The notes under the pieces were generated by a model. That model did not search any database. It was not told the origin of the DNA and saw only the letters and a list, made by a program, of their open reading frames with translations. Below are positions 3,191 through 54,129 of a stretch of 64,000 nt of DNA, piece by piece. The DNA lies in assembly GCA_963924555.1 (NCBI GenBank), contig OZ004585.1, positions 4,539,488 to 4,603,487 of the forward strand, written 5' to 3'. Made by a program: the position numbers and the translations under genes. The DNA comes from Crambe crambe. Its lineage: Eukaryota > Porifera > Demospongiae > Poecilosclerida > Crambeidae. Positions within the stretch are counted from its first letter, which is position 1, and every line of letters begins with the position of its first letter.

Positions 3191-6100
3191 CTAGTCCACA
3201 GGATACATCATTGACAAATCAAATGGGGGGATTTCAGGAGCTTCCTCTTCTTGCTCAAAAGCTGTAGAGTCTGGAATATGATCTGTGACTTGACATTTTG
3301 ACTTTGTTTTTTCATCAATGACTGAATAGTTGGGATCACATGTGTCTGATACTGGATTATTCAGTTTTAACTGAGGCTTTTTCTTGACTACATTGCTGTA
3401 CGTTTCATTGCCAGGGTCATTCAATTCAAGTGCATCTAATCCTCCATAATCACTACTTCTGGGTGGCTTCTTCTTATTCATGATGGCATATATTATGCAG
3501 TTATCATGAATGTCCTCCTCATCGGATTTCACAGCAGTTTTTTTCACAGCAGTTTTGGTGGATTTTTTATTTACTGTGGAATAAAAATGGGAAGGATCCC
3601 ATGTTTCAGAACCCTTTTGCATTTGAGTTTCCTTCTGCATGGAAACATCACATGGTGTAAGGTCTATTTCTTCGTAATTGCTTGCAGCATTTACAAATGT
3701 CTTCTTCATCACTGTAGCAGAGTGGGAGCCATCCCTATTATCAGATGCATACGATTTCTTCTTTCTCTCATTATGTACTGGAGGAAATTTATCGCTACAT
3801 CGTGTACCTTTTAATGATGTTACAGTGCTATAATTTAGATCATTCTCAATAATCCCAAATTCTTGGCTAGATAAATCTTCATGAGTTTCTCTGTTCTCCG
3901 ATTCTGTTGCAGGAAGATTTTCAGTTACATTCAGTGTTGATGCTATGCATATTTCTGTCTCTTTCTTGACGCGAGTTTGAATGAGATATAGTCTACATAA
4001 TGTTATTGAACTGATAATTGTCAGTAATAAAGCTCCAATTCCAACTCCAATTCCAACTCCAATTCGTATTACTATAAGTGTTGCAAAATAATAATTGAGA
4101 GTGATAATGATAGCTACAGAATTTTTTGAAAAGGGGTGGGGGCAGCTTACAGAGCCACCTACTTACTAGCTACAGGCATGAATGATTGGTGAGTAAGATG
4201 GAACTTCATTTATAGATAATAATGGCCATGTTCTGGGTATGAATTACGTAGTACTGTTTCCTAACTACGTAGGTATTATATCTTATCAACTAAGCAAGCT
4301 AATCATTGCATTCCTACTACAATAATTAAACAGCAGTCATTACCAATTTGAAACTTTTGATTTATATGCTGCATATGATTTCTACCTGGAATTATTGTAT
4401 ACTGGAACTAAAAATCAATAAGGATGGGCTGGATAAATAATCATGTCAGCTAACAATACAATTGACTAACTATCGACCCTTCAAAATGCAGACAAACTCT
4501 GAATGACATGCTCCCTATTGATTCTCTGAAATAACACACACCCCCATTTAATAAAATGTGCGTCCATGGAGTTAAAAATGTCTTCATTTTCTCTATAGCT
4601 ATGTGTGATTCAGGTCTGTGAAGAATAAGGGATCTTCACTCCATACGTCTTTTTCTCAGCCGCTGAATAGATAGCCACTGTATCATGGCTGGTCTCACTT
4701 CAGTTGGAGTCTGTCCTGTTGTTTTGTCCATCTATCCAATAGCTATAAATTATGCATATACACTGGTGTAGGAACAGGGGTGAAAGTGGCCTGGGCCACC
4801 CTATAATTTTGGTTTAACCACATCCCAACAAACCACAATTCAGCATACACACATGCAACTCCTTACCAATTACAGTACTATCTTGTTGAGGGTCATCAGT
4901 CAATGTCACTGTTGTACCATTTTCTCCTAGTTGAAGATGGATTGAATATAATGGTAACGTTCATCATAGTTATTTGAGGTTTTTTTAAAAAATTCTGCCG
5001 CTCTCCTAAATTTAATCTTTGAAGACACGCAGACAATGTGATGGTAATGTTAATATTATCTCTCCTTAATGATGAAGAGGTCAAATCTTGCTCCACAATG
5101 CACTGAATTGTGTAGTTTTCCATTATAAGCTCACCAGTACTGATCTCCAAGGTGGAGTTAATCATGAAACTATTGTTATTTACTCTCTCAGTTCTATCAA
5201 TAAATGTCCCATTCTGTTCACAGCTATCAGGACCACAAGGTGATCCATTAAATATCCACCTCACACTGATGTTACTTCCTCTAGCATTGCAATGAAAGAT
5301 AGCTGTGTCACCATTTGCTACTGTCTGGGATGAAGGTGAGACTATTATTTCACTTCTCTCTAGAATGATAAGTGTATAAAAAGTTCCACTAAAGTTGTCC
5401 TTACAAACTACATAAAAAATGTAGCTACAACGAATCAATTTTCAAAACAATGGTAGCTTTGGAACCACTTTTTTTAAACTTTCATTGTATGCTTCAATTC
5501 AGTACCAATAATTATCTCAAAACTTGTGTAATTTTTTATGTGAAATCAGTCATACATAAATACCTATTATACTTATCAACTTACCTAGCACACGGACCTT
5601 CATGAAAGGTCCTGTCACTTCCCACTGACAGTTCTCAGAAAGAGAGCATCGTTGCATTCTTAACTTACACTGGAATGTCCTCTGATCAATAGAGTCTGAT
5701 ATAAGTACAGAAAGGGTTCTGTTATCTTGAGAGAGCACATATTCTCTTGACTCTATATCATTCATTAACTGCATTCGATGTGAATCCACAGTTACTTGTT
5801 CCCATTTTATAGTATAAAGAGTAGGCAGTGGTATGGGACATGTCAGCATTGCATATGTATCAAGGAATACATCAGTCATGATAGTTTCATTAGACACACT
5901 TGGAACAGCTGCATTAAGATAAGAAAACAATAATTATTTGCTCAGTCATGTGCATGTGTCTAATTATGCTTTAGATTTAGTTATGTTGTACCATGCTTCA
6001 TGTAATGGTTGTAGCATGCCTATATAGCTAATATTAAGTCAATGTGTGCACACTCAGATGATGTGATAGTGCACTTGGTTACATAATGCACTTGCCTTTG

Positions 6101-7034
6101 GCTTGTGCATTATGTAACCTCATGCACTATTGCATCATCTGAGTGTGCCTCATTAAAAGACGCAAAGTTAGCTAGGCTTATCGTAAGTGTTTTGTTGCTG
6201 GTCACATGTCTTGGGTCTAATCAAATTTCAGTTAGCTAGTGAATGCCAAAGTTTATAAAAGATGACATTCAGCTCTGTAATCACTTGGGACTGAGGCTGG
6301 AAGGTCATAGTCCAAGTGGATCTGCCTATGTATCTTCACCACAAGTTCCTCAAGTGTGCAATAAACGTTAAAATGTATTCAGAGGATCTGTTGGTCACAA
6401 TTAAGTCATGTAACTAGCAATAATGTCATGTACTATGCTGACTCTTGGTACATGGTTACATAGGTACCTATTGTAAGTGACATGCTAGCAATTGCTCTTT
6501 TAATATTATGTTACGTAGAAACTGAATCCTTTGAGATTATGCAAGATCTCTTAGGGTTCTAATTCACTTTAATCATGTTACTCAATCAGCTATGAATTTT
6601 AAACAGGTTATTAAAGCTACTGCTAAACTAATAGCTGTAGGCAGGCACAGTTTGTAACTGAACTGCAACACTCCTTTACATGGACTCATTAATACATTGT
6701 GTAGATGATATTACTATCACTAACCATAGAACATGACAGATTCAGAGTGTTCTCCTTGTATTTCACAACGAATATTAACTTCAAAATAAGCTGCAATGTC
6801 GTATGTCAGATAGTCTTCATTAACATCTGTAGGTTGCTCCATCAATAACACACCACTAGTATTATAAAACTTGAATCTCGCATTGGTATCAGCCACACCA
6901 CTGTCGGCAATACATTCGAGCCTTAGTACATTTGGAGCTTCCCTTGAAGGCAAGTAATAGTCCAGAGTAGGAATGCCTAGAATGACATGGATGGAGCACC
7001 AAACTAGAGTGTAGATGAACAAAGATGCCATCAT
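3191..7034 (-). CDS. Ig-domain receptor with tyrosine-motif tail, copy B
   Basis: Four exons: 7034-6725 (signal peptide plus Ig-like module), 5908-5585 (second module), 5359-4867 (third module, WIFNG and QCIVEQ) and 4071-3191. All junctions are phase 1. The last exon opens with a transmembrane helix (GVGIGVGIGALLLTIISS) followed by a cytoplasmic tail of roughly 250 residues ending MMYPVD. The tail holds seven YxxI/L/V/M motifs: LNYSTV, NYEEI, FYSTV, IYAIM, DYGGL, TYSNV and NYSVI. No kinase domain is present. By family knowledge YEEI suits Src SH2, YxxM suits PI3K p85, YxN suits Grb2, and LxYxxV is ITIM-like. So the protein looks like a docking or inhibitory/activating receptor at the plasma membrane. 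Exon 3 carries a 133-bp insertion that breaks the frame; without it the coding length would be 624 residues. A possible ATTAAA poly(A) signal lies near 3098. Confidence 0.8.
4072..4866. other. Intron 3 of copy B
   Basis: The intron runs from a GTAAGG donor (4866 side) to a TTATAG acceptor (4072 side). No further exon or clear repeat was recognised in it. Confidence 0.5.
4907..5039. other. 133-bp insertion in Ig3 exon of copy B
   Basis: Compared with the same exon of gene C, copy B has an extra 133 bases flanked by a six-base direct repeat (CAATGT at 4901-4906 and 5034-5039). 133 is not a multiple of three. Reading through gives a stop within the exon; removing it restores a 360-nt phase 1-1 exon and the ACATTG-ACT reading shared with gene C. 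It has no obvious inverted ends. It could be a small transposon, or be spliced out by a weak GTCTTC donor. Confidence 0.75.
6048..6149. repeat. Foldback insertion in intron 1 of copy B
   Basis: Near-perfect arms GCACACTCAGATGATG and CATCATCTGAGTGTGC enclose a second inner hairpin around TTGCCTTTGGC. A diverged copy sits at the matching place in copy A. Confidence 0.8.
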
Positions 7035-7926
7035 CAGCTAGAGAGACGTGCATGCAGACTAGTTAATATTCTTTAATGGAGCGAGTATGATCAGTTTTAT
7101 TATGCAATACCATTATATGATATGAATAGCTGGCAACAGCTTATCATTATACACTGTGTTTATACACACAAGTGCTCACTCACAATAACAAGTTTTCTAA
7201 ACTGGAACTTACCATAAATTCTCTGTACAGTAAAGATTGATTAATGACAAAAAAAAAATAAAGAGATATTAGCTGGCTGTATAGCTAAGAGGTGGTACAA
7301 CTGATGGTGGTACAGAGAGTGCAAGAGAGCAATGAGAGAGGGTAGGTTTGGGAAGTATCTTGGAATTTTGGAAATACAGTATAGAGTATGAATGCTCAAC
7401 AATAACTAGCAATATATCCCACCTAATACATTTACTCCCATAGAGAAAAGTGCTCTTACTGTCATAAATTCCCTCCCTTAGGGTAAAGTGCGTTATGACT
7501 CATAACGCACTGTTCCCCAGGCTATGAATAACAGGTTTTCTGAAGCTGACTGTTGGAAGAAGATGATAATGAAGATAATCTATAATGATAATGATAATAA
7601 TATAAGATAATGAAGATAATCTATGCATGAGATAATGATCAGATAACATTGTCATTAATTAGCTAGCTATTACTAAAGAGTTTATTTCTGTCTCTGTATT
7701 GTATTGGTAGTTTATAGCTGACTGTTGGAAGAAGAAGTTAACGATCAGTCTATAACATTGTCATTAATCTATTTCTGTCTCTGGGTAGTTTATAGCTGAT
7801 TGTTGGAAAATGAAGAAGTCATCTGGTGCTGGGTCACAAGGAAACTTCATAGCTTTTTTTTTTTTTTTTGCAATTTTCACACAAGAAGAAATTATTTCTA
7901 AGGCCCATTGGTATTTTTTGTCATAC
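7035..7926. other. Upstream flank of copy B
   Basis: The first ~100 bases resemble the flank of copy A. A perfect 25-base palindrome lies at 7487-7511 (AGTGCGTTATGA with its complement). Between 7540 and 7800 there are short GATAAT-rich and TTTCTGTCTCTG repeats. Apart from the candidate exon that follows, no gene is seen. Confidence 0.5.
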
Positions 7927-8090
7927 CTTCCGCTAGCTTCGCCAAAACGTGGGTGGAGGAACTCGTTAATAGCTGGGTACCGGGTGTGGTGGGCATGGGA
8001 GGAGCCTCGTAGTTCGTAGTCTTGCTTGAGAGCACGAGGCTCTGTACTGTGAGTTCGAGAACGGCACATCCCAGGACAGGGACAAGCCAT
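7927..8090 (-). CDS. Possible first exon, unknown product
   Basis: Starts at an ATG in a GC-richer patch and reads about 54 codons (begins MACPCPGMCRSRTHSTEPRA) to a good GTATGA donor in phase 2. Composition looks coding and CpG-rich, unlike the flanks. No partner exon was found before copy B, whose own signal peptide starts at 7034. I do not recognise the protein. It may be the stranded 5' exon of a gene broken by nearby insertions, or chance. Confidence 0.3.
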
Positions 8091-8179
8091 GGCAGGAGTT
8101 TTCGTTTTGTTTCGTAACTAAGGGGTAGCTACGCTCTAGCTACAGACCGACCAATGAAATCGTGCGCCCTGGGGATATA

Positions 8180-8302
8180 TAACAGTTAGAACACGGTAGT
8201 CCTGGTGATTATGGCCAAATAAACAACCTTATCCTCGGGCTGCGCCCTCGGATTCGGTTGTTTATTGGCCATAATCACCAGACTACCGTGTTCTAACTAT
8301 TA
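8180..8302. repeat. Foldback element with GC-rich loop
   Basis: Arms TAACAGTTAGAACACGGTAG and complement extend about 50 bases each and flank a loop reading CCTCGGGCTGCGCCCTCGG. This resembles the loop of the hairpin nested in the neighbouring inverted arms. Confidence 0.85.
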
Positions 8303-8306
8303 CATA

Positions 8307-9025
8307 GATCCCGTTGCTATGTGGTTGCTATGTGCATTAAATCAGCAAGTGTGCACTAATTCTGTAGGAGTGCACTAATTTTGTAGGAGTGCACTAATTT
8401 TTTGCATCCCCAGGCTATGCTGAATGCTGCAAGACAGCTCGAAGAAGTTGTTGAAGTTCTGCCTTTTATGCTGGCTACTATACTCTCTGAAAAGCTTGTT
8501 GGGTTTGAAACGTTATGTCATTATAAACATGCAACGTGGTCAATGAATAACATTAAAATTCCACGTTTCAAACCCAACAAGCTTTTCTGAGAGTAGCTAG
8601 TATAAAAGAAGGAACATTCTAGCTGGTCTACAGCAAGCTGGTGTTTCACACGCCGCCTTCTTTGATCTTCGGACTGGGCAGGCACAAAATACTTGTATCC
8701 TTCGTGCTCGGGGAGTATCCCCGATTTATAGATAGCTATAACAGGAGCATCAGCAGGTACGTGGACTATTCTTGCCGCCATTTCACAACTCAAGAAAGAA
8801 GTGGAGACACAATAATTAGCTAGCTATAGTAAACCAAACAGTACTGATGTTTGTAACTATGGACTACAGTAGCTACGCGCATGCGCAATGGGATCTAAAA
8901 TAGATAAAGCATGCGCACTCGGTTTCTGGTTGATTTAGTGCACCATCCCTCGGGCCTGCGGCCCTCGGGCTACGGTGCACTAAATCAACCAGAAACCTCG
9001 CGCACATGCTTTATCTATTACATAG
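8307..9025 (+). mobile_element. Left 719-bp inverted arm (non-autonomous element)
   Basis: This segment is repeated almost base for base in reverse at 10179-10897. Inside it are two further hairpins: 8485-8600 (arms around AAGCTTGTTGGGTTTGAAAC) and 8896-9017 (arms around TTTCTGGTTGATTTAGTGCA with a CCTCGGGCCTGCGGCCC loop). A CTATTACATAG 11-mer lies both at its right end and just left of it (about 8296-8307), possibly a target duplication. A minus-strand 90-codon frame beginning MSCEMAARIVHVPADAPV is intact in both arms; its product is unknown. Confidence 0.8.
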
Positions 9026-9304
9026 TCATCAGAATTCTGTTCGGGCCATCTGTTAGAGCGGCACCTAGAGGCTGATCTTTTGCTATTAGTTTTCACTACA
9101 GTTCCATTTCACAATTCAGTGATTATGGAACACTAGCTGATCTTTCTTCGCCTTTTTAAGGGCGGGGCCACATAGGTGCGCGCTAGCTAGAGCTAGAGCT
9201 GTTCAGCTTTGATAGCTATTTCTTGTGTTTCAGTCATTCCTCAGTACAGATTCTCATCCTACACATAATCAGTACTTAGCTCTGTGCAGTTTGCTCACTT
9301 CACC

Positions 9305-10163
9305 ATGCCAGTGCCTCCAGCTGCGCACCCCCTCCCAGAAGGTAAGGAACTATAGATAACGCATTTCCATTCATTACTCTTACAATTACATCATCCAGTG
9401 TCACCTCCAGCTGCGCACCCCCTCCCAGAAGGTAAGCAACTATGGAAATTTCTCCACTCTCACAATTACATCATCCAGTGCCACCTCCAGCTGTGCACCC
9501 CATCCCAGAAGGTGAGCAACTACATGTATGTAGAATTATCACATTCACTGCTCTTACAATTACATCATCCAGTGCCACCTCCACCCACATGCCACCCCCT
9601 CCCAGAAGGTAAGCAACTATGGAAATTTCTCCACTCTCACAATTACATCTTACATCATCCAGTGCCACCTCCAGCTGTGCGCCCCATCCCAGAAGGTAAC
9701 TACATGTATGTATAATTATCACATTCACTGCTCTTACAATTACATCATCCAGTACCACCTCCAGCCGCACGCCCCCTCCCAGAAGGTAAGCACTATAGAT
9801 AGCACATTTCATGATCTTACAATTACATCATCCAGTGCCACCTCCAGCTGCGCGCCCCCTCCCAGAAGGTAAGGAAGATAACACATTTCATGATCTTACA
9901 ATTACATCATCCAGTGCCATCTCCAGCTTCCCACCCTCACCCAGAAGGGTAGGGCCAGGCGGAGGGGGAGGGGACGTCAACGGTTCTGCCTGTTCCCGTG
10001 TGAGTACATACTTAACTATTTTCCACCAACACATAACATGCATCACCATAATCTATAATTCCAGACCAAAACATGTGCAATGGAAATCGTAAGTAATATA
10101 AAACAGTACAAAATCACTTAGCTATAGCTACTTCTCTTTTCCAGTACACTTTCATTACCATGG
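9305..10163 (+). CDS. Proline-rich micro-exon gene, copy 1
   Basis: An ATG exon (9305-9341) is followed by seven micro-exons starting at 9399, 9479, 9573, 9663, 9753, 9836 and 9915. The first six are 33 nt (one is 36), each phase 1-1 with an intact CAG acceptor and GTAAGC-type donor, and introns between them are only 46-61 nt. Each encodes a variant of VPPPAAHPLPEG. Exon 7 should continue into a Gly/Arg-rich segment, but relative to copy 2 it lacks 11 nt and reads into a stop (GAA GGG TAG). Later short exons appear at about 10064-10088 and 10145-10165. The protein is probably a repetitive proline-rich chain, function unknown. Alternatively the array is a non-coding minisatellite, but consistent splice sites and lengths in threes argue for coding. 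Likely damaged in this copy. Confidence 0.55.
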
Positions 10164-10178
10164 GAGGTAAGTTGTGCA

Positions 10179-10897
10179 CTATGTAATAGATAAAGCATGT
10201 GCGCGAGGTTTCTGGTTGATTTAGTGCACCGTAGCCCGACGGCCGCAGGCCCGAGGGATGGTGCACTAAATCAACCAGAAACCGAGTGCGCATGCTTTAT
10301 CTATTTTAGATCCCATTGCGCATGCGCGTAGCTACTGTAGTCCATAGTTACAAACATCAGTACTGTTTGGTTTACTATAGCTAGCTAATTATTGTGTCTC
10401 CACTTCTTTCTTGAGTTGTGAAATGGCGGCAAGAATAGTCCACGTACCTGCTGATGCTCCTGTTATAGCTATCTATAAATCGGGGATACTCCCCGAGCAC
10501 GAAGGATACAAGTATTTTGTGCCTGCCCAGTCCGAAGATCAAAGAAGGCGGCGTGTGAAACACCAGCTTGCTGTAGACCAGCTAGAATGTTCCTTCTTTT
10601 ATACTAGCTACTCTCAGAAAAGCTTGTTGGGTTTGAAACGTGGAATTTTAATGTTATTCATTGACCACGTTGCATGTTTATAATGACATAACGTTTCAAA
10701 CCCAACAAGCTTTTCAGAGAGTATAGTAGCCAGCATAAAAGGCAGAACTTCAACAACTTCTTCGAGCTGTCTTGCAGCATTCAGCATAGCCTGGGGATGC
10801 AAAAAATTAGTGCACTCCTACAAAATTAGTGCACTCCTACAGAATTAGTGCACACTTGCTGATTTAATGCACATAGCAACCACATAGCAACGGGATC
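10179..10897 (-). mobile_element. Right 719-bp inverted arm
   Basis: Reverse complement of 8307-9025 with the same nested hairpins and the same open frames. Copy 2 of the micro-exon gene (57222-57245) has no such insertion at the equivalent place: there GTGCACT runs directly into TAACACTATA. So this arm is a clear insertion inside the duplicated gene region. Confidence 0.85.
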
Positions 10898-11540: not shown

Positions 11541-11555
11541 GGAAACAAGTGAATG

Positions 11556-12040: not shown

Positions 12041-12467
12041 CATTCACTTGTTATTATACAACTATTGACCAATCAGGTGACAGCATGTAAAGTAGTCATA
12101 GTAAAGTGAAATAAGAGAACATTATTATACATACTAGCTACATGCAGATGCTTGACTGTGTGCATAATACATACTATTTAAACCCCAGTCAAAGGATAGC
12201 CTGGAGCCAGGTAGGATCGACTGTGATTAGATCTGTACCAGACCGATGTCCATCCATTAGTGGCCAACCAAGCTTCCAGCTACCTGGAGCATGCAAATAT
12301 CCTTAAGACTTGTATCCTTATTGCTGAGGTCCTAGTAAGGCAGGAACTACGCAGTTCGCTGTTTATCAGACTACAACACAGAAGTGCATAGAGTAGATTA
12401 TCGACCGCCATATATGAACGGACACTGCAGAGGACAGCTTGGACATTAATCAGAGATACTTACGTAC

Positions 12468-16416: not shown

Positions 16417-16460
<44 letters not shown>

Positions 16461-18424
16461 GAAGAGAAGACATTCCTACTGTTGGGACATAACACCACAA
16501 CGGCTGAGCAAGCTGCTCACACTCGGCAAATAGCCTAACCCCATTGCACTGATGCAAGGTCAGCAAAAAAAAAAAAAGCCAAAAGGGAGCTCACGAATAG
16601 GACAAGCTGTCCATATGCAAGCTGCTCACTTGATAGGACAAGCTGTCCATATGCAAGCTGCTCACTTGATAGGACAAGCTGTCCATATGCAAGCTGCTCA
16701 CTTGATAGGACAAGCTGTCCATTTGCAAGCTCTGCAAGCCGTGAATGACTGCTCCCTTAATAGGACAAGCTGTCCATATGCAAGCTCTGCAAAAGCCCCA
16801 AGCAGGCTGCTCACTTAGTAAGCTCTACAAAAAAAAAAAAAAAAGAAGTGAGCAAGCTGCTCACTCGTAGCTAACAAGCAAGGGGACAAGCGGTCCACAT
16901 GCAAAGCGGCTCACTTAGCAATCACCGGACAAGAGCCATGCATGATGCATGCAAGCTGTAAAAAAAAAAATTAAAAAAAACTGCCACAAGCCTTGGGCAA
17001 GCATGCTAACCACAGAGGGAGTAGTGCCACGAGAACAGAATTTGTGCTGATTGAGCTAGTTTGAGAGCTCAGAATTCGTGCTGATTGAGCTGTACCCAAA
17101 TAAGGCAAAGCGCAACTCTTTTATCGATAAATAGCTACAGGAAATTATTACGTGAAAAAAAAAACAAAAAAAAACTCACCTAAATAAAACAACACGTTTC
17201 CTGCCATCCCTCAAGCAGCCAGGGGGAACCCCCCCCCCCCCCCCCCCCCCCAAAAAGAAAAAGAAAAAAAAAGTGTTATCTTGAGCCACCCCCCTTCCCT
17301 TGCAGGGCTAGGGATCATGCCACCACCAGCCAACTTACATGGAATCAACATCTTTGATGCAAGCACAACACCAAACACGAGGACCTTAACACTGCCACTG
17401 ACAGCTACATCGAACAGCGGGACACGCATGATCTCCTCCGTGAAAGAGTCCTCAGCACTGCCACCAAAATTAGTCCAGAGGATACAGGATCTCGAATATG
17501 TGGAAATGAGTGAGCTGGTGCCAGATGCCTGGAGATTCCAGGAGGACGAACAGAAGTGCTGCCACCAGATCCGTCGCATACCTCGTCGGGGCCCAGTAAC
17601 AGACATCCTACTATGGGTCGAATGCTATGCGTCACTTGTCTCTGTGTTGGCAACAAAATTTCCAGAAAAGGTACCACAGCTGATGGCCTACCAGCAGACA
17701 ATTGTGAAAGCTCACCGAACCTTCATCGGCGAGGGATGGGTGACCTACGACGCATGCTTCCGGCGTAAAGCCTCTTTCACAAAATCCCTTGAGTGGGGAA
17801 TGGTAGATTTCACCTTATATAATGAAACATTTACTGGTCGGGCAAAATCAATCACACGATGTAGGTACTGCTTGAGCGAACACCACTCCTCTAGCACCTG
17901 CGTGTATGCACCTGACACTCCTGCCAACAGAGACTCCAGCAACAGCAAGGTCACACCAAGGACCATGAGAAAGATCTGCTTACTATACAACTCTCAAGCA
18001 GGAAACAGATGCCGGTATAACCCCTGCAGGTATATACATTCCTGTACGGAGTGCCAGGGAGCTCATCCGAAGAGCACCTGCCCCGTTCCCCTTCCCCATA
18101 TCGTCCAAAGAAGTGACCCGGACAATCTACACAGCATACTTACTGGACCAGAATTACTATCATTGTTGTTGTGTTTCTTATTTGTTATATTTCTCCGCCC
18201 AAAAGGCGTGATCACCCACCCATCAGGGTGTGGTTTAAGAGCTAGTAGGCTTTAAAAAAATAAAATAATAATAATAATAATAAAAAATAAATAAAAAATA
18301 AAAAATTGCATTGTCGTAGAGATATGTTAACTACGGAATGAGGATTGAAATAATATAATTATAATAGTATAAAAATAATAATAATAATAATTTTAAAAAA
18401 ATTAAAAATAAATAAATAAATAAA

Positions 18425-18473
<49 letters not shown>

Positions 18474-21400
18474 AATGAAAGAAAAGATAGTAATAATAAT
18501 TATTGACATCGAATCATCTCTGGCACACACACTAAACACAGCTTCAGATGATGGCTATCAGTATACTCAAGACCTACTGAAACTGGGGACCGGAAGGTCC
18601 AAAAGGCAAACAGTCTGTGACCCTCGCCTTGCCACTATCTCAACGCCACTGAATCTGGCAGCTTGGAGGAACAAGCTGGCCAAGCATCCAGACAAGGAAT
18701 ATGCCAGATACATTTTGGAGGGGATTGAATATGGCTTTGCAATTGGAGGGGATGACACCAGGACATTCAAATCAGCACAGCAGAATATGCTATCAGCGAA
18801 GCAGCACCCACAAGTCATCGAGAGGTATCTGGACGAGGAAGTACACAAAGGCAACATACTAGGTCCATTTTCTGAACAGATGGCAACCAAAATTCACATC
18901 AACAGGTTTGGGGTTATCCCAAAAAAGCACCAACCGGGCAAGTGGAGACTAATCACGGATCTATCTTACCTAGATTAGGCGAGTGTGAATGATTCCATCT
19001 GCCCAGAGTCCTGTTCCCTTACATACACAACAGTGAATGAAGTAGCAGAAGCAGCAGTGGCTCTTGGGAAAGGGGCCCTCATCGCAAAGATTGACATAAA
19101 GTCTGCATATCGGCTAGTACCAGTCTGCCCGCAAGACCGTAGGTACTTAGGGATGAGATGGAATGGAGCAGTATACGTAGATGGCATGCTGCCATTTGGG
19201 CTGAGATCAGCACCAAAAATATTCAATGCTCTAGCTGACGCACTGGAATGGTGTGTCTCTCAGGAAGGGGTTTCTCCTATTTATCACTATTTGGATGATT
19301 TTGCAGTGATTGGCCCACCTGATTCAACGAGATGTCTAGATGCGCTCCATACCCTTTCCAGGGTGTGTTCCGAATTAGGAGTTCCGTTGGCTCAGGAGAA
19401 ACAGGATGGTCCTACAACCAAAATAGTGTTTCTAGGGATCTTGATTGATACTGTCAGACAGGAACTACGTCTCCCAGAGGATAAGCTCAAGAGAATACTG
19501 GAGACAGTCACTCATTGGATTGGGAAGAAAGCTTGCACAAAGAATGAGTTGGAATCACTGATTGGGTCACTACATCATGCTTGCCAAGTAATTCGCCCAG
19601 GTCGATCCTTCATGAGGCGGGCCATATCCCTCCTGAAGGTAGCAAAATGCCGCCACCACCATATCCGGCTAAATGCCGAATTCAGATCAGATATGATGTG
19701 GTGGAAGGTCTTTGCATCTCACTGGAATGGGGCTTCACTGCTGATTCATAAGGACAGCACAGAGGTCGTGTTAACATCGGACGCATCCGGAACATGGGGG
19801 TGCGGAGCATATTCAAGCCACAAATGGTTCCAACTGCGATGGAACGATAAAGTCCGAGGTTGGCACATCGCAGCTAAGGAGCTGATCCCAATTGTAATAG
19901 CCGGAATTGTTTGGGGCAAGGAGTGGAAAGGCTGTAGAGTTCTGGCACAGTGTGATAATGTAGCGGTGGTAGCAGTTGTCAATAAGCGTTATTGCCAGGA
20001 TAAGCACCTAATGCGAATGCTCCGATGTTTATTCTTCGTTGAAGCACACTTCCAGTTTAAAACAGTTGCCACACATATCCCCGGGGTAGACAATGACTTA
20101 GCCGACGATCTGTCACGGGATAAATTATCATCCTTTATGGGAAAATATAAAGAATCCAACCCTAACCCAACATTTATTCCACCTCTTTTACTGCAGTGGC
20201 TACTCCAGCAGGAACTGGATTGGACCTCACCCAACTGGACGGAACAGTTCAGTTCTATTGTTCGAAGGGTATAGCAGAGTCAACGCACAAAACGTACCAG
20301 TCAGCACTGAAAAAATTTGCTAACTTTTGTTCGTTATACAATGTCATATCCCCCTTCCCAGTTTCCGAACCCATTTTGTGCTACTTCGCTTCCTATTTAG
20401 CAACCAATAATTTATCCCAACAAACAATAAAAACCTACCTAGCAGGAATCAGATTCATGCAAATTACTATAGGCCTGCCAGAACCAAAGGAGTTCTCATC
20501 GCTCCCAAGACTACGGTTAGTACAGTCGGGAATTAAGAGAGCACACGCACAACGGTCCCCATTATCAAATAGAATTAGACTCCGCCATTTTGGGGATGGT
20601 TAAGGAGCACTGGACACCAAGGGCGGCAGATAGGGACATAAAAATGTTGTGGGCAGCATCGGTACTCTGCTTTTTTGGCTTTTTCAGAGCAGGGGAGATC
20701 ACACTGCCATCACTGAATGCCTTTGACTCTGGCAAACATCTAAGCTGGGGGGATATTGCCGTGGATAGTTTAGAGGCCCCTACAATGCTGAAAATTAGAC
20801 TGAAGAAGTCCAAGACTGATCAGTTGGGTAATGGGGCTGATGTGTTCGTTGGGAAGACAGGATGTGCATTGTGTCCAGTGGCCGGTGTCTTGGCTTACAT
20901 GGCAGTTCGTGGTGATAAAGAAGGTCCTTTCTTTAAGTTTGACAATGGTCAACCCCTGACTAAGTCGAAGTTCACACAGCGCATCCGACAGGCCCTTCAA
21001 GTGGTAGGACTGCCGTCCAGAGCTTCGCTGGGCACAGCTTTAGGATCGGAGCCGCCACCTCAGCTGCCAGGGCTGGCATTGAAGATTCGACGATTCAGAT
21101 GTTGGGTAGATGGAACAGTGCAGCATTCTTGGCCTACATCAGGATACCCCGAGAACAATTAGCACGACTGTCAATGTCTATAGCTCGCTCATAATGAATA
21201 TTATGTAATCAGTCATCAAGCATCAATTAAGATAATACTTAATATAAGGAAGGAAGAAGTTATCTCCGTTTGGGGGGAGAGGAACAAGTTCCTCTCTGGA
21301 TGGGTAATCTATCCCCCACAAACAGTAGATATTAATTAATTAAGGGGGCCCTTGGCAGGTTGCTAACTAATGTCAATTACTGGTAATTGGTGCTTAATAG

Positions 21401-28509: not shown

Positions 28510-28541
<32 letters not shown>

Positions 28542-31500
28542 GTAATAAAGCCTTTTTAGTTGGAACAAATAGCAAAAGGTCAATGTCACAGCTGCAGCCA
28601 GTAAGTCAGTATGTTGATCTTTATCATTATTATGAACAAAAGTCAATTATAGATATCGTTTTTTTTTCTTATGTTAGCGAATATTTTTGAACATTCTTCT
28701 CTCTACTGTGTAGGTGTAATGATTCACTGTAGTCTTCTGAGAACCTGTAGAGTAAGGGTAGAAGAGAAAGAAGAGTTTTTAGTCTATACAGTCCTATGGA
28801 CTTTGACCTGCCATCCCTACTTAGAGAGTGCTAGTGCACTCTCTGATTATGAACAAACTGAACAAAAGTCAATTCTAGAAATCATTTTTTTCTTGTGTTA
28901 GCGAATGAATTTTTTATTTTTGAACATTCTTCTCTCTACTGTGTAGGTGTAACCTACAACTTGTAGAATAAGTTCTTCTGAGAACTTGTAGAGTAAGGGT
29001 AGAAGAGAAAGAAGAGTTTTTAGTCTATACAGTCCTATGGACTTTGACCTGCCATCCCTACTTAGAGAGTGCTAGTGCACTCTCTGATTATGAACAAACT
29101 GAACAAAAGTCAATTCTAGAAATCATTTTTTTCTTGTGTTAGCGAATGAATTTTTTATTTTTGAACATTCTTCTCTCTACTGTGTAGGTGTAACCTACAA
29201 CTTGTAGAATAAGTTCTTCTGAGAACTTGTAGAGTAAGGGTAGAAGAGAAAGAAGAGTTTTTAGTCTATACAGTCCTATGGACTTTGACCTGTCATCCCT
29301 ACTTAGAGAGTGCTAGTGCACTCTCTGATTATGAACAAACTGAACAAAAGTCAATTCTAGAAATCGTTTTTTTCTTGTGTTAGCGAATGAATTTTTGATT
29401 TTTGAACATTCTTCTCTCTACTGTGTAGGTGTAACCTACACAGTAGAGAACTTGTAGAATAAGTTCTTCTGAGAACTTGTAGAGTAAGGGTAGAAGAGAA
29501 AGAAGAGTTTTTAGTTTAGGACTTTGATCTGCCATCTCTACTTAGTGCACTCTCTGATTTGGGTCAAAACGGAGTTATTGGAAGCTGGAGTTTTATAGCT
29601 ATGCTGTTTAACAAATTTCTACTTAGTCTAGGGATGTGGTGAGCGAAACTTTAGCCAATGACTTCACCTTATCCCACCAGACGAAACCGGAAGTCAGAAC
29701 ATATAAAGCAGTGCCCCTCATTTGATTCCGTAGGCGGCTCGCTTCGCTCACCAATTAAAATAATTAATACTTATCGTTAATTTTTACTCATGAAATGCCT
29801 TACCATCTGATGACGATAAATTGAATTGTTGCCTTAACATTTCCCTTCCAAGGTAACGATTTTCAATTGCCACTGTAATGTTATATATGCCCTCATCAAA
29901 TTCATTGAAGTTCCAGAGCACTAATTTCATGTCATATTTACAGAAGGTGATATCAGGTTCAATGCAAGTCCGTTGTTGCTCAACTCTGAACTTTCCACTG
30001 CTATTACAAAGTTGGGATGAGAAATTTCTCAAATTGGAACATAAATACACCTCTTCATTTTCTTCATTTAATTTGGTAATTTCTAAATATCTGATTCTTT
30101 TGGTCATTTTACAAGATCCACCATCAGTGAAACTTATTCTGGTGTCTATCAATACATTACCATTTGGAGTACCAGCAATCTGCATTATTCCGGGGCATTC
30201 TCCAAATTCACCAGGACAAGATATAAAAAATGGTCTTCCTACAATAATAAAGATTGTAGTGTGAAATAAACATCTGATATTATTTGCATTATACAAAATA
30301 AGGTGCAACTACGTATGTGAAAAAAAAAGAGTTCAAGCGCATGCCATATAATTATGGGATCAACTGAATATCCACAGAAAATTCCTACTTCTCTCCATAC
30401 ACTTTCCTATGGAGCTATACCCTCATGCAAGTCTGGAGAAGTCAGAATTCCCATGGATGTTGAACAAACTCTATTACCTCGCACAAATAAGCACAATGAT
30501 GCTGGCTGAATAGTATTGTTGTCAACTCCACAATGGTAGGTGCCTTCTGCAAAACCATTAACTTCACGTATGGTCAGCTCATTTCCATTTTGGTAAAATG
30601 AATCATTCAGAGTTAAAGGTGCACCTAAACCATCCAGTGAGTCATTCCCATTCATGTATCTCCGTATGTACCAGGATGAAGATGATGCATCAGGACCAGA
30701 GCACCGTGCTGATACTTGAATGTCAGAAAAGGGATCTACAGCTAAAGACAGCATAATTTCCAATGTGTCAGTGGGGAATGTGAAGCATCACATAGATACA
30801 TGCAGCTATTGTGAATTGCACTCAAATATTTAAGTTTTGGCCAAGGAGCTTGCTGATTAACACAGTCACAATTATCATCCCATAATAATTAGTATAGTTA
30901 AGATAAGCACTCTGGAAGCCTTCTTTCCCTGAACCACAGTTTAAAATTAGTATAGTAGCTAATTACATGCTTTTGAGTGTAATTTGGGTATAATTGCATG
31001 AGGAACTGGCTAGGTAATTGCACGAGGTGAAGCCGAGTGCAGTCCCGAGTGCAAGTGATTGCCTATTAATCATAATAATTATGGTCTAGCCTACAATCTT
31101 CAGAAATGTCGTTACTAGGTTAGTCTGCACATGCACAGTAGGTAGCTAGAAATGAAATTATGAACTACGAGTGAAATTAAGGATTAATTTCCCTTGAACT
31201 AATGAGGGTAAATATTTAACCATGTATAGCAGGTGGTAAAATCTTTGAGTTTTGGAGATAATGGCAGTATTTGTGGTTAAATTTTTTGGTGCGGTGTGGC
31301 GCGTGCAGCTAGCTGACCTATAGCCAGCCATGCACCAGGTGCTAGTATGGTATAGGCTTAAAATGCTAGAAGTAGAACTCAGTGTAGTTAAGGCAGGCTA
31401 TAATTTGTGATAGTACTTGAGAAAAGGGGTCTTATCACGCAAAAATTCAAAACCGAGATTTACATGGTTTTTAAATCTAATTAATACACCACTTTGTTCC

Positions 31501-40086: not shown

Positions 40087-40117
<31 letters not shown>

Positions 40118-46780: not shown

Positions 46781-46832
<52 letters not shown>

Positions 46833-49625
46833 CACAAATTTATTAATAGTAGCTATTGTATTTATGACCTTTCCAAATCGATAGACTTGCAGTGACATTA
46901 TTTACCCTGTCCTATGGTGTGTTCCAGCTGAATATAACGACCAGGTATCAGCAAGTTGGACTCAGATAAATTTCTGATAAACGATTCAGAAGGACCTATT
47001 TTTCCAGCTCCAAGTACTGTGGATTTCACTAGTATACAACATAGAGAACATCATTCTATTATAATAATTAACTTTGCTACTTTGTAGTACCATAATTGAT
47101 ATTGAGACTTGATGAATTAGAAGCTTGAGGATGCTCATCTTTATCATTTGACCTGCGAGTTTTAAGCTGTTGATAATATATGTACGTATGTATGTACATA
47201 TGATGTACATTGAAAAAGAACCTATGATAGAGACTTCTGTATTTTGAATGGCATACTAACTTCGCCTTCGATATCAGTAGCTAGCTCTATCTCCTGGACC
47301 ACTTTGTGGCTCAATATGTCATTAGGGTGCAATGGAACACCCAATTGATGGACACAGTCTTGGGATCGGCCTAGCCTTGGAGGCTATTAATTTTGTAAAT
47401 AAAGGATTTTAGATTGTTAAGAAGTTTGTCATCTTTTGGAGTATCTTTAATGGGTCATATTATTACAGCTATCATGATTATGATTGAGCTAGAGCTAATC
47501 ATTCTGCAGGGAAAATCAATGGAGAATAATATTACATTTTCTTTTGAAGTTCTGCATCAAGGTTTGAAAGGATTTTTTTGGTTCTCTTCTTCTTAATGCA
47601 AAAGGCTACAACAGCTACAGCTGTTATTATTCCTAGCAGTAGCACAATGCTGATAGGGACTGAAACTGCAATCAAAAGTGAAGAGGTGTCATCTCTGCCT
47701 AAGGTCAAATCATTGATGACTGTTGAGGAGGAAGTGACAGTAGTCATAGTCCCTAAAATTAATATCAACAGAGTTATAGAGGTTAGTAAAGTGATTTGGC
47801 TAGTTGAAAATTTCTGCATTTCCGTAATCCTATACAAGTGGCAGAAAGATACAAGTGTTGTACATGAAACACTCTTGTAGGATATTGTCATTCATTCATC
47901 AACATAAGCTCACAAGTCATAGGCTACTTAGATTAGTTTTAGATAGCTATAGCTCTGATTCACTAAGGGTGGGTGTGAGGTTTCTCCACAGCAGCAGGTT
48001 ATATTAAGCTCTAATATAAGTCCTATGGAGCTATGCACCGCACTGTTTTGCCACTCATACAAATCTGGAGAAGTCAGAATTTCCATGGATACCCAATTGA
48101 TGAGCCCTAGCCCTAGTCCTTCTTATCTATAACCTCCAACCTATGAAATTTGATTTCAGTATAAAATGCTCCCATTTTCAGTTTTTTACCACAAATTTCA
48201 GCCATTTTATAGCTAAATAATGTAATATAAAATGTGTATAGTAAGATTATCTAAATTTTGTGTATTTTTGGTATAGTTGGAGGCTCTGCAAGTTATAATC
48301 TTTTTTTAAGACTTGTGCCTTGATTATAGTGACCATGAATTTACTATAAAAACATAAAAATTTATCTTACATAAGTTACCTCTGACTGAAGTCAAATTAT
48401 TGGTCACTGTTGAGGAGGAAGTGACACTACTAGTCACAGTTCCTATAATCATAAATAATAACGAGTTAACAAGTTAGTCTTATAAAGACTTCTGTCTTGG
48501 CACCATATAAACTAGAAGCTATAAGCTAGTAGTGACTAGGTATACCTACATAGATCAGCCATTTTATAAGTAATCAGAGAGTGCAGTAGCACTCTCTATG
48601 TAGGGATGACTCGGATGGCTGCGCGCGCTGCCTATAGACTAATACAAAAGTGAAATTCTAGTTCCCCCACTTAGACCTAACAAAAGCTACTGTGAATGAT
48701 TATCCAGCCTACTAGAGCCTACTACAATGTGCAGACCAAGTTTCAGGACCAGGGAGCTTACCGTTTCAGAAATACGGCAAGCAGGTAAATCGTTGGATTC
48801 TTCTTCTTCTCTATTATTATTAGCGTAAGGCATCACTATTCGGCCAGACTATTTTCCTCGTGCCATATCGTCTTCACCGATGGTCATCAAAGCCTCAAAC
48901 AGAACCATAAGGAAGATATTTCCTTCCTCTTTAACGTCATATAAATCATTTCCCCCACAATTGGATAGAAATTTTGTAACATTGGATCTACTACATCAAC
49001 TAAAGAACCAATAATCGTCCACCAATATCTATCTTCGACCACCCGTTGAAAATCTAATATCAATAAATTCGTCCACCCCAGTCTTTCTTTTAAAGTTTTG
49101 CTCCACTACATGTCAGGGCCTCAAGGGCCCTTAAAAAGATACTTTTATACTATTTTATGCTATGAAATACATCATTATAACAAATTTTATAAAAAATGAA
49201 CGTATCATAAGCGGCTTCACATTTTTCAGTCGAATTTGCTCTTTGTTATAGCGAGGGCTGTACGGATGGATATGACTAGATTTATGAAACACAGACCAAT
49301 GAAGACTGTTTCTGAGTATTTTTATCTGAATCTAACAAAAAGGAGAGCTTCTGCAGCAGTTACCATTCTACCATAAGTCGATAGTTTGAGCAATCTTCTG
49401 GAGCCATGGGGATGGGTAACGTGAGCTAGCAACTTACTTTCATACTACAGCTGATAAATAGTTCTCTTGAAGTCCTGTTTTCTCTCCATAGCTTGTAAGT
49501 TTTTCCCATCCATTTTCCAATGCAGCCATTTTCTTAGACTCCGTTTACGTTTGTTTACTACCGTAGACTTTCTGTGTCATTAAAACGGTCGATTTAAGAT
49601 GCGGTCGAAATTTGATGCCTTACGC

Positions 49626-49658
<33 letters not shown>

Positions 49659-52600
49659 TACTCTTAGACAACCATATCTCTCGAACCACTCAAGCTACAG
49701 CTATGATTTCTGGATAAATTCACTCCAAATTCTACCAACTACGATCTTTTCTACTCGTTGATCCTCGAAAGAGTCGATGAAAAAGGAGACACTACGGAGC
49801 ACAGCACTCGACTAATTCAATTAGGAAGCCATCTTTTCTATAATACGCATGCGCATGTATTTGATATCCAATTATTCAAAATTACTCAGCTGTCTCTAGC
49901 TAGCTAGCTAGCTAGCTCTAGATAATGATGATAGACTACTGTATCGACTCGGGGATTTAGATTCACGACGGTAGACTCTATTTCAGCATCTTCCTTCGAC
50001 CTCCAAGTATAGCTCAACAATAACACAACACCTTGACTCGTTGATAATGATTGGGCTGGTATGCTGGAGAACTATTGGAGAACTATTCTTCTTTCATCTG
50101 TCCCTGCATACACATAGAAGAATGCTAAAACCATAAAAGAGAGGAAAAAAGACCAGGAACAAGTAAGGGAAAAAGCATTTTGTGAAATGAAAAAAGATGT
50201 AGGGATGACTACTGCTCAAAAAAGTAAGGAAACAAGAAGGATGGAATGGGATTAATCTTTGTTCTGTATATCCAGCCAACAATCCCTAGGGTAGCTTCAG
50301 ATTATAGTGTAGTAATGTACGTAAATATACCCGCTATACGGTATAAACTATGAAAGGTAAATTGAAAAGGGGGCCGGGACCAGTTTTTTATTTTATTTAT
50401 GAATGGTCTCTCCTTTTAGATATATGATGGATTGAATGGGGGACCAGCTTACTAACAAGAAATATCTCCCAAAATGCTCATGAATGCATGTCGGATGGTC
50501 TCCGTCTCCCAAAATTTAATGTTTATTTTGTAAATCTTTATAAGCTATTATAGGAATCAAGGTATCCAAACAAACAATGAGTCAGAATTATGATTATGAC
50601 TGGCAGCAAATCAATAACAGCTGCATGGTATAAGAACTATGATCCAATCCCTACAAGTGGATTTACATCCAATCTTGATGAAATGTTAAGTTGGTAGGAT
50701 CCTGTCTGTTATAAATGAAGTGATCACACAATCACTCCCTTGAGCACAACATGCTTCCCCCTTACTTCTCACTCATAATCAGTGCCTATGCCCAGGCTCT
50801 GAGTCTTCATGAAGACTAGTCATGGGGCTGAAGAATTATTGCTATACACAAACAGCTATAAGCATTTTCTTCAAGCTGCTAAAATCATTGAATTTAATTA
50901 GTATACCTGGAACTAAAATAGTCCTTCATGTAGCAAAGTAGGACTGCTAGCATTTATCATGAAACAGTACCATAGCTAGAGAAGTTATACATCCTCATGT
51001 CTGTCCATGAAGCTATGGGTCCATTATGTATAATATTGCAGAACTCCCCCAACATGATTAGTGTGTGGGCTTCTTTTGACAACCAAATCACTATACCATC
51101 ATGAATAGTTTATTTCCTCTCTAATCAATGCCTTTTGCATGTAGCTACATATTGAGCTCAATGTAATGTAATCATAGGGAGAGTGGTTTCAGTGGTTGAT
51201 ACACCAACTGTATGGCCAGGTAAGAACCATAATCTGACGTGAATAATAGCTACAAGCACTCACCAATATCTGATTGAGTTGATTGTTGAGGATATACAGT
51301 CAATGTGATAGTAATGTTGATATTGTCTCCCCTTAGTGACAAAGAGGCCAGATTTTGCTCCACAATGCATTGAATTGCGTACTGTTTTTCTTCCATTATG
51401 ACTAAATCAAGCTCACCAGTCATGATTTCCAAGGTCGTGTTAATCGTGTTACTTGTTCTATGAGTTATATTTATTGAGATCCCATTCTGTTCACAGCTGT
51501 CAGGACCACTAGATGATCCATTAAACATCCACCTCACACTGATATTACTTCCTTTAGCATTGCAATGAAAGATAGCTGTGTCACCATTTGTTATTGTCTG
51601 GAATGAAGGAGGAAGTTTAGTTATTGCACTTCTCTCTATAAGAATAATATGCAGCCAATAATAACAGCATTCCTCATGGAGTTATATACACTGTACCTAG
51701 TACTTTGATTTCCATGAGGGGTCCGGTAATATCCAATATTTGACAACGTTGAGAATCAGAGCATTGTCTAAATTTTACTTTACATCGGAATGCCCTCTGA
51801 TCAGTAGGACTTGAAATCAGTACAAAAAGGGTTCTGCTATCTTGAGAGAGTATATATTCTCTGTCTGAATCATTCATTAACCGTATTGGAATTGAATTCA
51901 CAAGTTGCTCCCATATTATAGTGTAAAGACTGTGTACAGTAGGCAGTGGAATGGGGCACATCAACATTGCAGATGTATTACAAAATACATCAGTAGAGAC
52001 AGTTTGATTAGATACAGTTGGGATAGCTGCATTAATAATAAAAAATACATTAATCATTGCTGCAATTAGGAAAGCAAAAACAAGTTATTGAGATATGATC
52101 AAAATTCTTCATTTTAGAGTAGAATTGGAATCAAATCCAAAGGAATTTTGGTTCAATTATAATGGTCTGTAACTAGTGAACGTTAATCATGTCAAATTAT
52201 AGCTCATTATTATTATAGATATATACCACAGTCATGTGAGATGTCCACTTTGAAAGTATATACATAAATTGTTATTCAAGAGGCTGTTGGTACGTGTAGC
52301 TTACAGTCTGTAAGTGCATGGTAACTATTATGACCAAAAATGTGACGCTAGCTAGTGCATACATAAAATATAAAAGTGCAGAGTCCTTTCATGGTGCCCT
52401 CACATCTTTATAATTTTTGTACATTTTATTTAATAGCATATGGATGGTAATTTTCAAGGTGTCAATAGGTACTATCCTTTGCATTAACTATCTACATATC
52501 TTCTCATTTCTTCTTCCTCTCATTTAGTTTAAGTTCCTGAAGACATCGGGCAAGCATATACTTCAGCTCATGATCACTGTTTGATCTACATTGTGACCTT

Positions 52601-54129
52601 AATTATTATCAGCTCTGTCAGTCATGCTAAAAAAACTTACTCTATAAAGACTCCTTTTGGAAAACTTGGTAGTTAATGTTATAAAGGACCAGTGATGCAG
52701 CTAAAAGAGGCATGGTAGTAGCTCCCTGTGACATATTGGTGACTGCACATTGGTGACACAATGGCATGAGATGAGGAGGAATCTTCAAAATAAAGGATAA
52801 AGTCAAGGGAGGCAGCTAATAAGATGCCATGTCTCACACAATCGACAGAGCCTTTCCAGTATCATTCTGCTGACTACTTAGGAAGATGCTGTATAATTCT
52901 ATTCATGCAAATGTTGAAGAAGAAAAAAACAAGCAGGGAATAATTTCACTCACTTCTGAAGAAACATACAAGCAAGAAGACCTGATGCTTAAATAAAGGT
53001 CTTCTACACTTTGCTTAGAGCTCATTTTCACAGGTAAACAGAAACAGATGGTATTAATCTTTCAATCTTTGGATAATGCCTGGTTCGTTCGTGATGCCTG
53101 GTTCATTCAGTCCTGATTACAATCCAGCATACACTATAAAGAGGAATGGCACAGATGCCCCATTGGAATGTTATGCTGGGATTCCCACTTGTCTTGCAAT
53201 AGAGTAACTCCATGGCTTTGAAGTGGTATATCATAATTGTAGCATTAGAAGGAAGGAATTAAATGTTTATGAGACACAATCATCCCAACTTGTTGCTATT
53301 TTTACTGGTAGCTCTCTCCAAAATTTGTATATACCCTTTTCCAAGTACTATCATGAGACTATAAGTAGCTATAATACTAGCTACATGGAATAGGAAACCC
53401 ACATCACCCTATGGTGACAAAAAGTGTTGAGTGCTATTTTTGTGTTAAGTTTGAGTTTATATAGGCCCTTCTTCTTTCTCTTCCTTTGTGGGTATAGGGC
53501 ATTGATGCTATATGCGCTGTATCCTAGGCTATGCATGTAGCTACTTCGGGAAATTAAAATTTCTACATGCGTGATCATGCAGACTTAATTCTGCAAATCA
53601 AATTGCAAAGTGCATACTAGATATCCTGTATTTGAGTACATACGTAGCTAGCTAGCTACATTATAGCTCATGTGTATAGCTATAACTCATTGCAGAGCTC
53701 AAGTCATACAGCAAAATATTGTTGCTATACTTAAACCCTATGTAACTAACTTTGAGTAAATACATAGCTAGATAGCTAGCTAGCTAGCTAGCTATATCTA
53801 CCAGATACAACAAACAAATTACCAGCAAACGAGATGTCTCCCGAGTGTTCTTCCCCTATTGTGCAGCGAACAATTGCCTCAGAATCCCTTGCAATATTGT
53901 AGGTCAGGTAGTTTCTATTGGTGTCTGTAGGCTGATCTCGGAGTAACGCACCCGTGCTGTTATAGAACTTGAATCTTGCATTTGAGCTAGCCCGGCCGCC
54001 ACTGTCTATACATTCCAGCTTTAATACGTTCGGAGCTTCTTCTGAAGGTTTATAGAAGTCCAAAATAGGCCTACCAAAAATCACATGGATTTCGCCCCAA
54101 AACAGAAAGTAAGTGAACAGAGATGCCAT
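41942..54129 (-). CDS. Ig-domain receptor tyrosine kinase, gene C (complete)
   Basis: Thirteen exons: 54129-53823, 52026-51697, 51635-51264, 48442-48380, 47752-47536, 47162-47101, 47016-46906, 46360-46274, 45948-45731, 45665-45553, 43648-43483, 43211-43069, 42086-41942. Every junction agrees in phase and the total is 2334 nt (777 residues). Order: signal peptide and Ig1, Ig2, Ig3 (same modules as copies A and B), Ser/Thr stalk, transmembrane helix ([20 protein letters not shown], about residue 383), juxtamembrane, kinase. Kinase motifs: GQGEFG near 488, VAVK (Lys 513), HRDLAARN (618), DFG (638), activation-loop [26 protein letters not shown] and [12 protein letters not shown]. All catalytic residues are present. 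[13 protein letters not shown] and QVAKGM most resemble MET/AXL-type kinases. The C-terminal tail is short. It presumably signals at the plasma membrane in response to an unknown ligand. Upstream in-frame codons before 54129 are ignored because copies A and B start at this Met. Confidence 0.85.
42759..42868. repeat. Foldback hairpin in last intron of gene C
   Basis: Arms near CAAAAGTGTTTACTGCACAC and TTGTCCCAATACACACAC with complements, loop GTTTTTGTTTTTG. Confidence 0.8.
44518..44965. mobile_element. Foldback MITE family 2 copy in gene C intron
   Basis: Sits in the 1.9-kb intron between the HRD and DFG exons. It is close to 34378-35005, with part of the flank deleted, ending in the AGAGAGTGCTACCACACTCT palindrome. 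Confidence 0.85.
46784..46830. repeat. TC dinucleotide microsatellite
   Basis: About 22 CT units lie in the intron between the juxtamembrane exon and the P-loop exon of gene C. Confidence 0.95.
48812..49636. mobile_element. TIR element in the Ig3-stalk intron of gene C
   Basis: TTATTAGCGTAAGGCATCA at 48816 faces TGATGCCTTACGCTATTA at 49613, about 22-base inverted ends, followed by an ATT microsatellite (49625-49665). The interior has no convincing frame. Confidence 0.6.
49637..51263. other. Remainder of gene C intron 3
   Basis: 49665-49880 is a repeat also present, split by a transposon, at 37195-37315 and 38195-38260. A TAGC run lies at 49900-49920. No exon recognised. Confidence 0.5.
52027..53822. 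other. Intron 1 of gene C
   Basis: No coding sequence seen. TAGC simple repeats at 53643-53660 and 53768-53795 lie just inside the donor. Confidence 0.5.

Follow-up and report, generated by a model that had tools for sequence, protein, structure and literature searches.

The first and main finding of this study is that the 64,000-nucleotide stretch of the Crambe crambe genome analyzed here (contig OZ004585.1, below C8, positions 4,539,488 to 4,603,487; hereafter the window) sits inside a cluster of sixty or more receptor genes on a probable sponge chromosome, in which one kind of ectodomain is joined to three different intracellular parts. These parts are a tyrosine kinase in gene C, a long tyrosine-rich tail in gene B, and a shorter tail of a third type in gene A. 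An initial annotation of the window had described B and C as a kinase-less receptor and a kinase receptor with a common ectodomain. That observation is confirmed and is larger than was claimed, and the interpretation attached to it is partly supported. All genes discussed below were read from sequence, in one genome.

As had been proposed, gene C (minus strand, 54129-41942) encodes a complete receptor tyrosine kinase. Its 773-residue open frame spans 13 exons separated by introns that are all GT-AG (12/12) and consistent in phase, and encodes, in order, a signal peptide, the ectodomain, a single transmembrane segment and a complete kinase (signal peptide and transmembrane segment judged by eye). 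The kinase motifs—glycine loop (GQGEFG), VAVK, HRD, [12 protein letters not shown], and DFG—are intact, and every hallmark of a receptor tyrosine kinase (motifs, single transmembrane segment, ectodomain, signal peptide) is present. In the PDB, the kinase matches AXL, ROS, MER, MET, RET and FGFR3 at E values of 1e-68 to 1e-62, with a two-copy EGFR chain on top, and these matches single out no subfamily. The link between ectodomain and kinase is supported because a diverged paralogue, L049 (C8:4893001-4903000), repeats the layout of gene C: e2 and e3 (the second and third ectodomain exons), transmembrane exon, juxtamembrane exon, and kinase exons K1-K7, with identities of about 79% (e2), 63% (e3), 58% (transmembrane) and 85-95% (K2-K7). 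The first ectodomain exon, e1, lies beyond the piece of L049 that was read, and no stalk exon was seen in that piece. Elsewhere in the window, at 60601-60636 on the minus strand, 12 residues are exactly as in the kinase of gene C ([13 protein letters not shown] 0.009), and this is perhaps a relic exon.

Gene B (7034-3191, minus strand) combines the same kind of ectodomain exons with a tyrosine-rich tail of 267 residues (the initial annotation gave 250). Its exons align with those of gene C at 60% (e1), 57% (e2) and 65% (e3) identity, or 64% for e2 and e3 together, and the ectodomain exon borders are phase 1. The idea of one ectodomain kind on both a kinase and a kinase-less tail stands. With 64% identity, a ligand common to B and C, as suggested in the initial annotation, is hypothetical, as is a role of B as substrate or antagonist of C. 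The motifs GSNISVRW and SCEQNG were found again in other aligned ectodomain copies. What is not supported is the view that B itself makes a tailed receptor. The e3 donor, which is GT in all seven other fully read copies (A, D and L044 to L048), is GA in B, and the gene as assembled therefore reads through to a stop ahead of the tail. Judging from the assembled sequence, the product of B may be soluble or nonfunctional, unless a cryptic donor is used. We rejected a simple model of B in which three ectodomain exons are followed by the tail, since a small stalk exon is present and the e3 donor is lost. Nor do we read as coding the long open frame in which e3 ends, since a donor, an intron and the stalk exon emerge there when eight copies are aligned; with these copies aligned to C, the apparent 3' extension of e3 in B is mostly intron.

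Gene A had been suspected of being a third member, and it is one, with a tail type of its own. This tail follows the transmembrane exon, has 91 residues with tyrosine motifs (VIYEEI, NYEDV, SAYGVI), and differs from the B tail; neighboring genes of one ectodomain family therefore carry different outputs. Its location after a transmembrane exon led us to reject the alternative that A is a tail-less soluble copy. Full-length open frames with GT-AG introns were found in six of the eight fully read genes of A or B type (A, D, L044, L046, L047 and L048), with an altered C terminus in L044 and a shortened tail in L048; in L045, the frame is lost at the stalk exon.

Rather than the pair of receptors first proposed, the window belongs to a large family, as became clear when the whole genome was searched with the three ectodomain exons, the two tails and one kinase exon; all counts are lower bounds. 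The cluster occupies 3.9-6.15 Mb of C8, with one further unit at 6.56 Mb. Our map takes 78 of 101 e2 matches, leaving out 18 on other contigs and five small fragments on C8, together with 76 modules: 30 A tails (from 67 rows), 19 B tails (from 29 rows, two of them on C20 and pieces merged) and 27 kinase exons (27 of the 28 C8 rows, at 3.9-6.6 Mb, one with a stop being omitted; scores were computed for 150 of 228 candidates). Of the 78 e2 exons, 61 are followed on their own strand, within 10 kb, by a module as the next feature: a kinase in 24 cases, an A tail in 23 and a B tail in 14. A 5-kb limit gives 18 kinase, 19 A tail and 12 B tail assignments with 29 e2 exons left without a module, and a 20-kb limit gives 24, 25 and 15, respectively, with 14 left. 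Some mapped modules come after another module, and fragments and stops are present among the genome matches to e1-e3 and the tails. Kinase and tail genes share one 2.6-Mb cluster. Homologue searches returned 19, 21 and 10 proteins, all ENA entries without names. Separately, a near-identical copy of gene C lies about 207 kb away (C8:4384 kb versus 4591 kb; e2 and e3 99.6% identical), and copies of the A tail (98%) and of the B tail (97%) lie in neighboring genes at C8 4.173-4.180 Mb, a pattern that suggests recent segmental duplication.

Another significant finding is that ectodomains and tails have been recombined. We built a tree from e2 and e3 of 51 genes, their e2 found with the C query and their modules assigned by adjacency (one gene has no assigned module, and one row, L088, carries a stop kept as X). 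In this tree, 24 of the 28 genes with A or B tails form one clade (100/100) in which the two tails are intermixed, while the remaining four, all A-tail genes, lie outside it beside a kinase gene on a long branch (95/72). The kinase group nearest to the A/B clade is the C-type clade, on a weak branch (88/47); the initial annotation would have been refuted by a B ectodomain closer to unrelated receptors than to C, and this is not what the tree shows. All three labels on the tree need eight changes, compared with a possible minimum of two and a shuffled mean of 22.8, and are therefore clustered and not in one-to-one correspondence with the ectodomain; the starred branches force at least five changes of the A label and at least four of the B label. 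At the level of DNA, a 2.2-kb stretch that begins with e1, includes the introns and ends with the stalk exon is 89% identical between A and B; past that exon, nothing matches at E 1e-10 before the next gene begins. The similarity between A and D likewise stops at the stalk exon. Two genes about 10 kb apart, L090 and L046, carry an A and a B tail, respectively, on e2 and e3 that are 97.7% identical. The intermixing of tails in the tree and the end of A-B similarity at the stalk exon therefore indicate repeated recombination of ectodomain and tail, and the exon shuffling suggested at the outset is borne out. A tail related to the A tail also occurs at 20 places on C6:7.74-7.92 Mb (38-49% identity). 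In the one C6 piece that was read (L098), it has YEEI, CPAY, YEEV and SAYGV, in the same motif order as in the A tail, and the frames upstream of its transmembrane segment and tail are unlike e1-e3 and have no Pfam match above cut-off.

That the ectodomain consists of three immunoglobulin (Ig) exons, as had been claimed, is partly supported, and membership in the Ig superfamily is tentative. By sequence, e3 is the most Ig-like, matching Pfam Ig_3 at E 5e-6 in B and 4e-5 in C, both under the curated cut-off. The e2 profile gives a weak basigin match (E 0.005), with unrelated ribosomal S10 chains starting at 0.07, and e1, in which the alignment has two invariant Cys, has no Ig match by sequence. 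Profile comparison among e1, e2 and e3 found no similarity.

Both tails carry tyrosine motifs. In the B tail, seven of ten Tyr have I, L, V or M at +3, compared with a mean of 1.8 in 20000 shuffles (P 0.0003), which upholds the initial description of a tail rich in YxxI/L/V/M; in the A tail, it is three of five. Sites of the form [ILVS]xYxx[ILV], resembling an immunoreceptor tyrosine-based inhibition motif (ITIM), number three in the B tail (P 0.007) and two in the A tail (P 0.03) versus shuffles, and by sequence motif, both tails are ITIM-like. Tyr columns in the B tail are conserved above average (0.89 versus 0.78, P 0.047). Pooled ratios of nonsynonymous to synonymous substitution (dN/dS), from pairs that are not independent, are 0.53 for the B tail (13 sequences chosen for long open frames, 78 pairs) and 0.73 for the A tail (seven sequences from eight loci, one of which gave no frame, 20 pairs; the C6 tail excluded). 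For the ectodomain, e3 gives 0.45-0.52, and e2 gives 0.78 in the A/B clade versus 0.34-0.35 in two kinase clades. Of ten B-type tails, seven have an Arg close to the outer end of the transmembrane segment, two a Gln and one neither (by eye); the transmembrane segments of A and C have no charged residue. We take YEEI sites to suit the SH2 domains of Src and YxN sites those of Grb2. Exons for SH2 domains are abundant in the genome (135 matches, several in tandem arrays). Such arrays lie at C5:1.417-1.656 Mb, C9:1.487-1.614 Mb and C12:1.75-1.84 Mb, an apparent expansion of phosphotyrosine readers.

We propose that this is a clustered, recombining, paired receptor-like recognition family, in which the kinase would be one arm and the A and B tails would modulate or relay its signal, and give this reading a probability of about one half. 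In the scheme we envisage, a three-module ectodomain plus stalk meets one of three predicted outputs at the phase-1 intron that precedes the transmembrane exon. In the C type, the output is a tyrosine kinase whose catalytic motifs are intact; in the B type, it is a long tail for docking at tyrosines, and in the A type, a short tail with tyrosine motifs. Related ectodomains would read related ligands, kinase receptors would start phosphotyrosine signaling upon ligand binding, and the A and B tails would be phosphorylated in trans by C-type or Src-family kinases and then recruit SH2 proteins. Tail receptors would in this way modulate or relay the kinase signal, the intrinsic kinase serving as the activating arm, and the likely use would be recognition of self, non-self or microbes. 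A bolder version can be put forward only tentatively: that this is a sponge self/non-self or microbe locus, a paired-receptor complex at the base of the animals, in which the kinase activates, ITIM-like tails modulate, and exon recombination makes new combinations of specificity and output. Genes of the A and B types are linked and differ in their signaling ends, while their ectodomains are nearly identical; kinase and tail types are linked too, yet only about 64% identical in the case of C and B.

Several observations count against this proposal. The 64% identity of the B and C ectodomains is one, and the state of gene B is another, since it lacks its e3 splice donor as assembled and is, with L045, one of two fully read A/B-type genes out of eight that are not intact. 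At the 10-kb limit, 17 of the 78 e2 exons are left without a module and 15 of the 76 modules do not come first after an e2; outside the modeled genes, modules were assigned by adjacency. The absence of an Ig match in e1 belongs here as well. For the A tail, the excess of YxxI/L/V/M sites is marginal (P 0.049, shuffles) and Tyr conservation is not significant (P 0.14), and for the B tail, the choice of sequences with long frames favors a low dN/dS. Shared ligands, tail phosphorylation and expression are themselves predictions made from the genes.

Three other explanations were weighed against these data. Kinase-less receptors, together with soluble read-through forms such as that predicted for B, might be decoys that dampen kinase receptors by competition or nonproductive dimers, the tails mattering little. 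An ectodomain of the same kind and a gene B that as assembled would end after e3 fit such a role. We nevertheless consider it unlikely: both tail types have dN/dS below 1, tyrosine sites are enriched and conserved in the B tail, and a related A-type tail is also kept on C6 behind different upstream frames (one piece read). It is similarly improbable that the A and B types are independent receptors of ITIM kind or of the activating (ITAM) kind, phosphorylated by Src-family kinases and never acting with C-type kinases, the common ectodomain reflecting shared ancestry only. The YEEI sites in both tails would suit that arrangement, as would the open frames at C15:2.906-2.913 Mb, which match SH2 and kinase domains, and the Arg near the membrane in most B-type tails, which could bind an adaptor; most A/B ectodomains also form a clade of their own, distinct from the kinase clades. 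Set against this are the single 2.6-Mb cluster that holds both kinase and tail genes and the four A-tail genes that group beside a kinase gene outside the main A/B clade.

Least probable, in our estimation, is that the kinase-less copies are mostly decaying duplicates, with functionless 3' exons captured by unequal crossing-over. The lost donor of B, the lost frame of L045, the fragments and stops among the genome matches, and the stop in one of 51 tree rows are what such decay would leave. It sits poorly with the full-length open frames and GT-AG introns of six of the eight fully read A/B-type genes, with tail dN/dS below 1, and with the retention of the two tails at 30 and 19 places on C8. 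The coordinates of the features of the three genes are given in the table.

Table. Exons and related features of genes A, B and C (window coordinates unless a contig or piece is named).
Feature	Position	Strand	Basis or remark
Gene A e1	1255..1561	-	Alignment with C, gene model
Gene A e2	164..487	-	Gene model
Gene A e3, stalk, transmembrane, tail	L012 9938-9585, 9526-9422, 9122-9029, 8952 onward		Just outside the window
Gene A-type tail	C8:4538166-4538438		Genome search
Gene B e1	6725..7034	-	Alignment with C, gene model
Gene B e2	5585..5908	-	Alignment with C, gene model
Gene B e3	5006..5359	-	Alignment with C, gene model
Gene B e3 donor, lost	5004..5005	-	GA; read-through stop at 4896-4898
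Gene B stalk exon	4867..4926	-	Phase 1-1; absent from the model of the initial annotation
Gene B transmembrane and tail exon	3191..4071	-	Cytoplasmic tail of 267 residues; YEEI and YSNV are among its 7 YxxI/L/V/M sites
Gene C e1	53823..54129	-	Encodes the signal peptide (by eye) and ectodomain module 1; start codon ATG at 54129
Gene C e2	51697..52026	-	Second ectodomain module, Cys-Trp-Cys pattern; alignment invariants C23, W38, C81
Gene C e3	51264..51635	-	Third module, Ig-like ([14 protein letters not shown])
Gene C stalk exon	48380..48442	-	Phase 1-1; resembles start of transmembrane exon
Gene C stalk and transmembrane exon	47536..47752	-	Counterpart in L049, 58% identical
Gene C juxtamembrane exon	47091..47152	-	Counterpart in L049
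Gene C kinase exons K1-K7	47028-46906, 46360-46274, 45948-45748, 45658-45553, 43648-43483, 43211-43069, 42086-41942	-	

The window holds other features besides. Retroelement frames with a reverse transcriptase (RVT_1) lie inside the cluster at 17188-21162 (plus), and weak reverse transcriptase matches with an integrase (rve) frame at 58739-60503 and 62756-63886 (minus). An NHL-repeat open frame occupies 61060-61755 (minus), and identical 100-residue open frames at 8521-8823 (minus) and 10381-10683 (plus) are inverted about 1.6 kb apart. Two frames at 29784-30787 (minus) have weak Ig matches; they show no similarity to exons of A, B or C at E 1, and no transmembrane segment or output was found for them.

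The closest parallels lie in immune recognition. Vertebrate paired receptors—KIR, LILR and Siglecs—are encoded by clustered genes with near-identical ectodomains and different signaling ends, and their activating member has a charged transmembrane residue and an ITAM adaptor. The C8 family has the same clustering, near-identical ectodomains and different ends, with the difference that an intrinsic tyrosine kinase forms one of its arms. LILRB is noted to carry ITIMs (PMC11999971). The Alr system of Hydractinia, with 41 Ig-superfamily genes in an allorecognition complex (PMC11999971, PMC12065747), is by description similarly a large linked family with ITIM/ITAM-type motifs on candidates; unlike here, no kinase arm is mentioned for it in the available parts of these two sources. 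In Botryllus, the fester co-receptors (FcoR) are described as Ig-type and clustered; their long tails carry an ITIM, a hemITAM or a core YxxI/L/V motif, and the coupling of binding to output is called plastic (PMC12065747). Oligomorphic FcoRs exchange motifs by alternative splicing, according to the same source, whereas in Crambe, the alternatives are separate genes and one module is a kinase. The C8 family is a case of recombination between ectodomains and signaling tails.

Among sponges, Geodia has kinase-less adhesion molecules with Ig-like domains like those of its receptor kinase. One Geodia adhesion molecule is mentioned in PMC11999971, and the receptor tyrosine kinase of Geodia cydonium is, like gene C, a sponge receptor kinase with an Ig-like ectodomain (PMC12018476, PMC5793068). 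It differs in that its introns lie outside the kinase domain (PMC5793068), whereas in C, they separate seven kinase exons, and no cluster of kinase-less partners is described in the accessible portions of PMC12018476 and PMC5793068. Sponge SRCR genes (PMC10855680) and sponge kinase families such as Src-Aque1 (PMC8662651) are lineage-specific expansions and families, respectively, and are not described as one ectodomain on alternative tails in the text available from these sources. We found no published description of a locus such as this one among the literature matches listed, a coverage that mostly leaves aside subscription papers. A 2025 review reports that candidate allorecognition proteins are not conserved between sponges, cnidarians and ascidians, places ITIM and hemITAM motifs on Botryllus and Hydractinia candidates, and takes both systems to indicate an early origin of the ITAM/ITIM balance (PMC12065747). 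A sponge family with one ectodomain kind on alternative tyrosine-based outputs would extend this ITAM/ITIM logic to sponges, and the C8 cluster offers a specific candidate locus for such receptors, suggesting that the ITAM arm can be replaced by a kinase.

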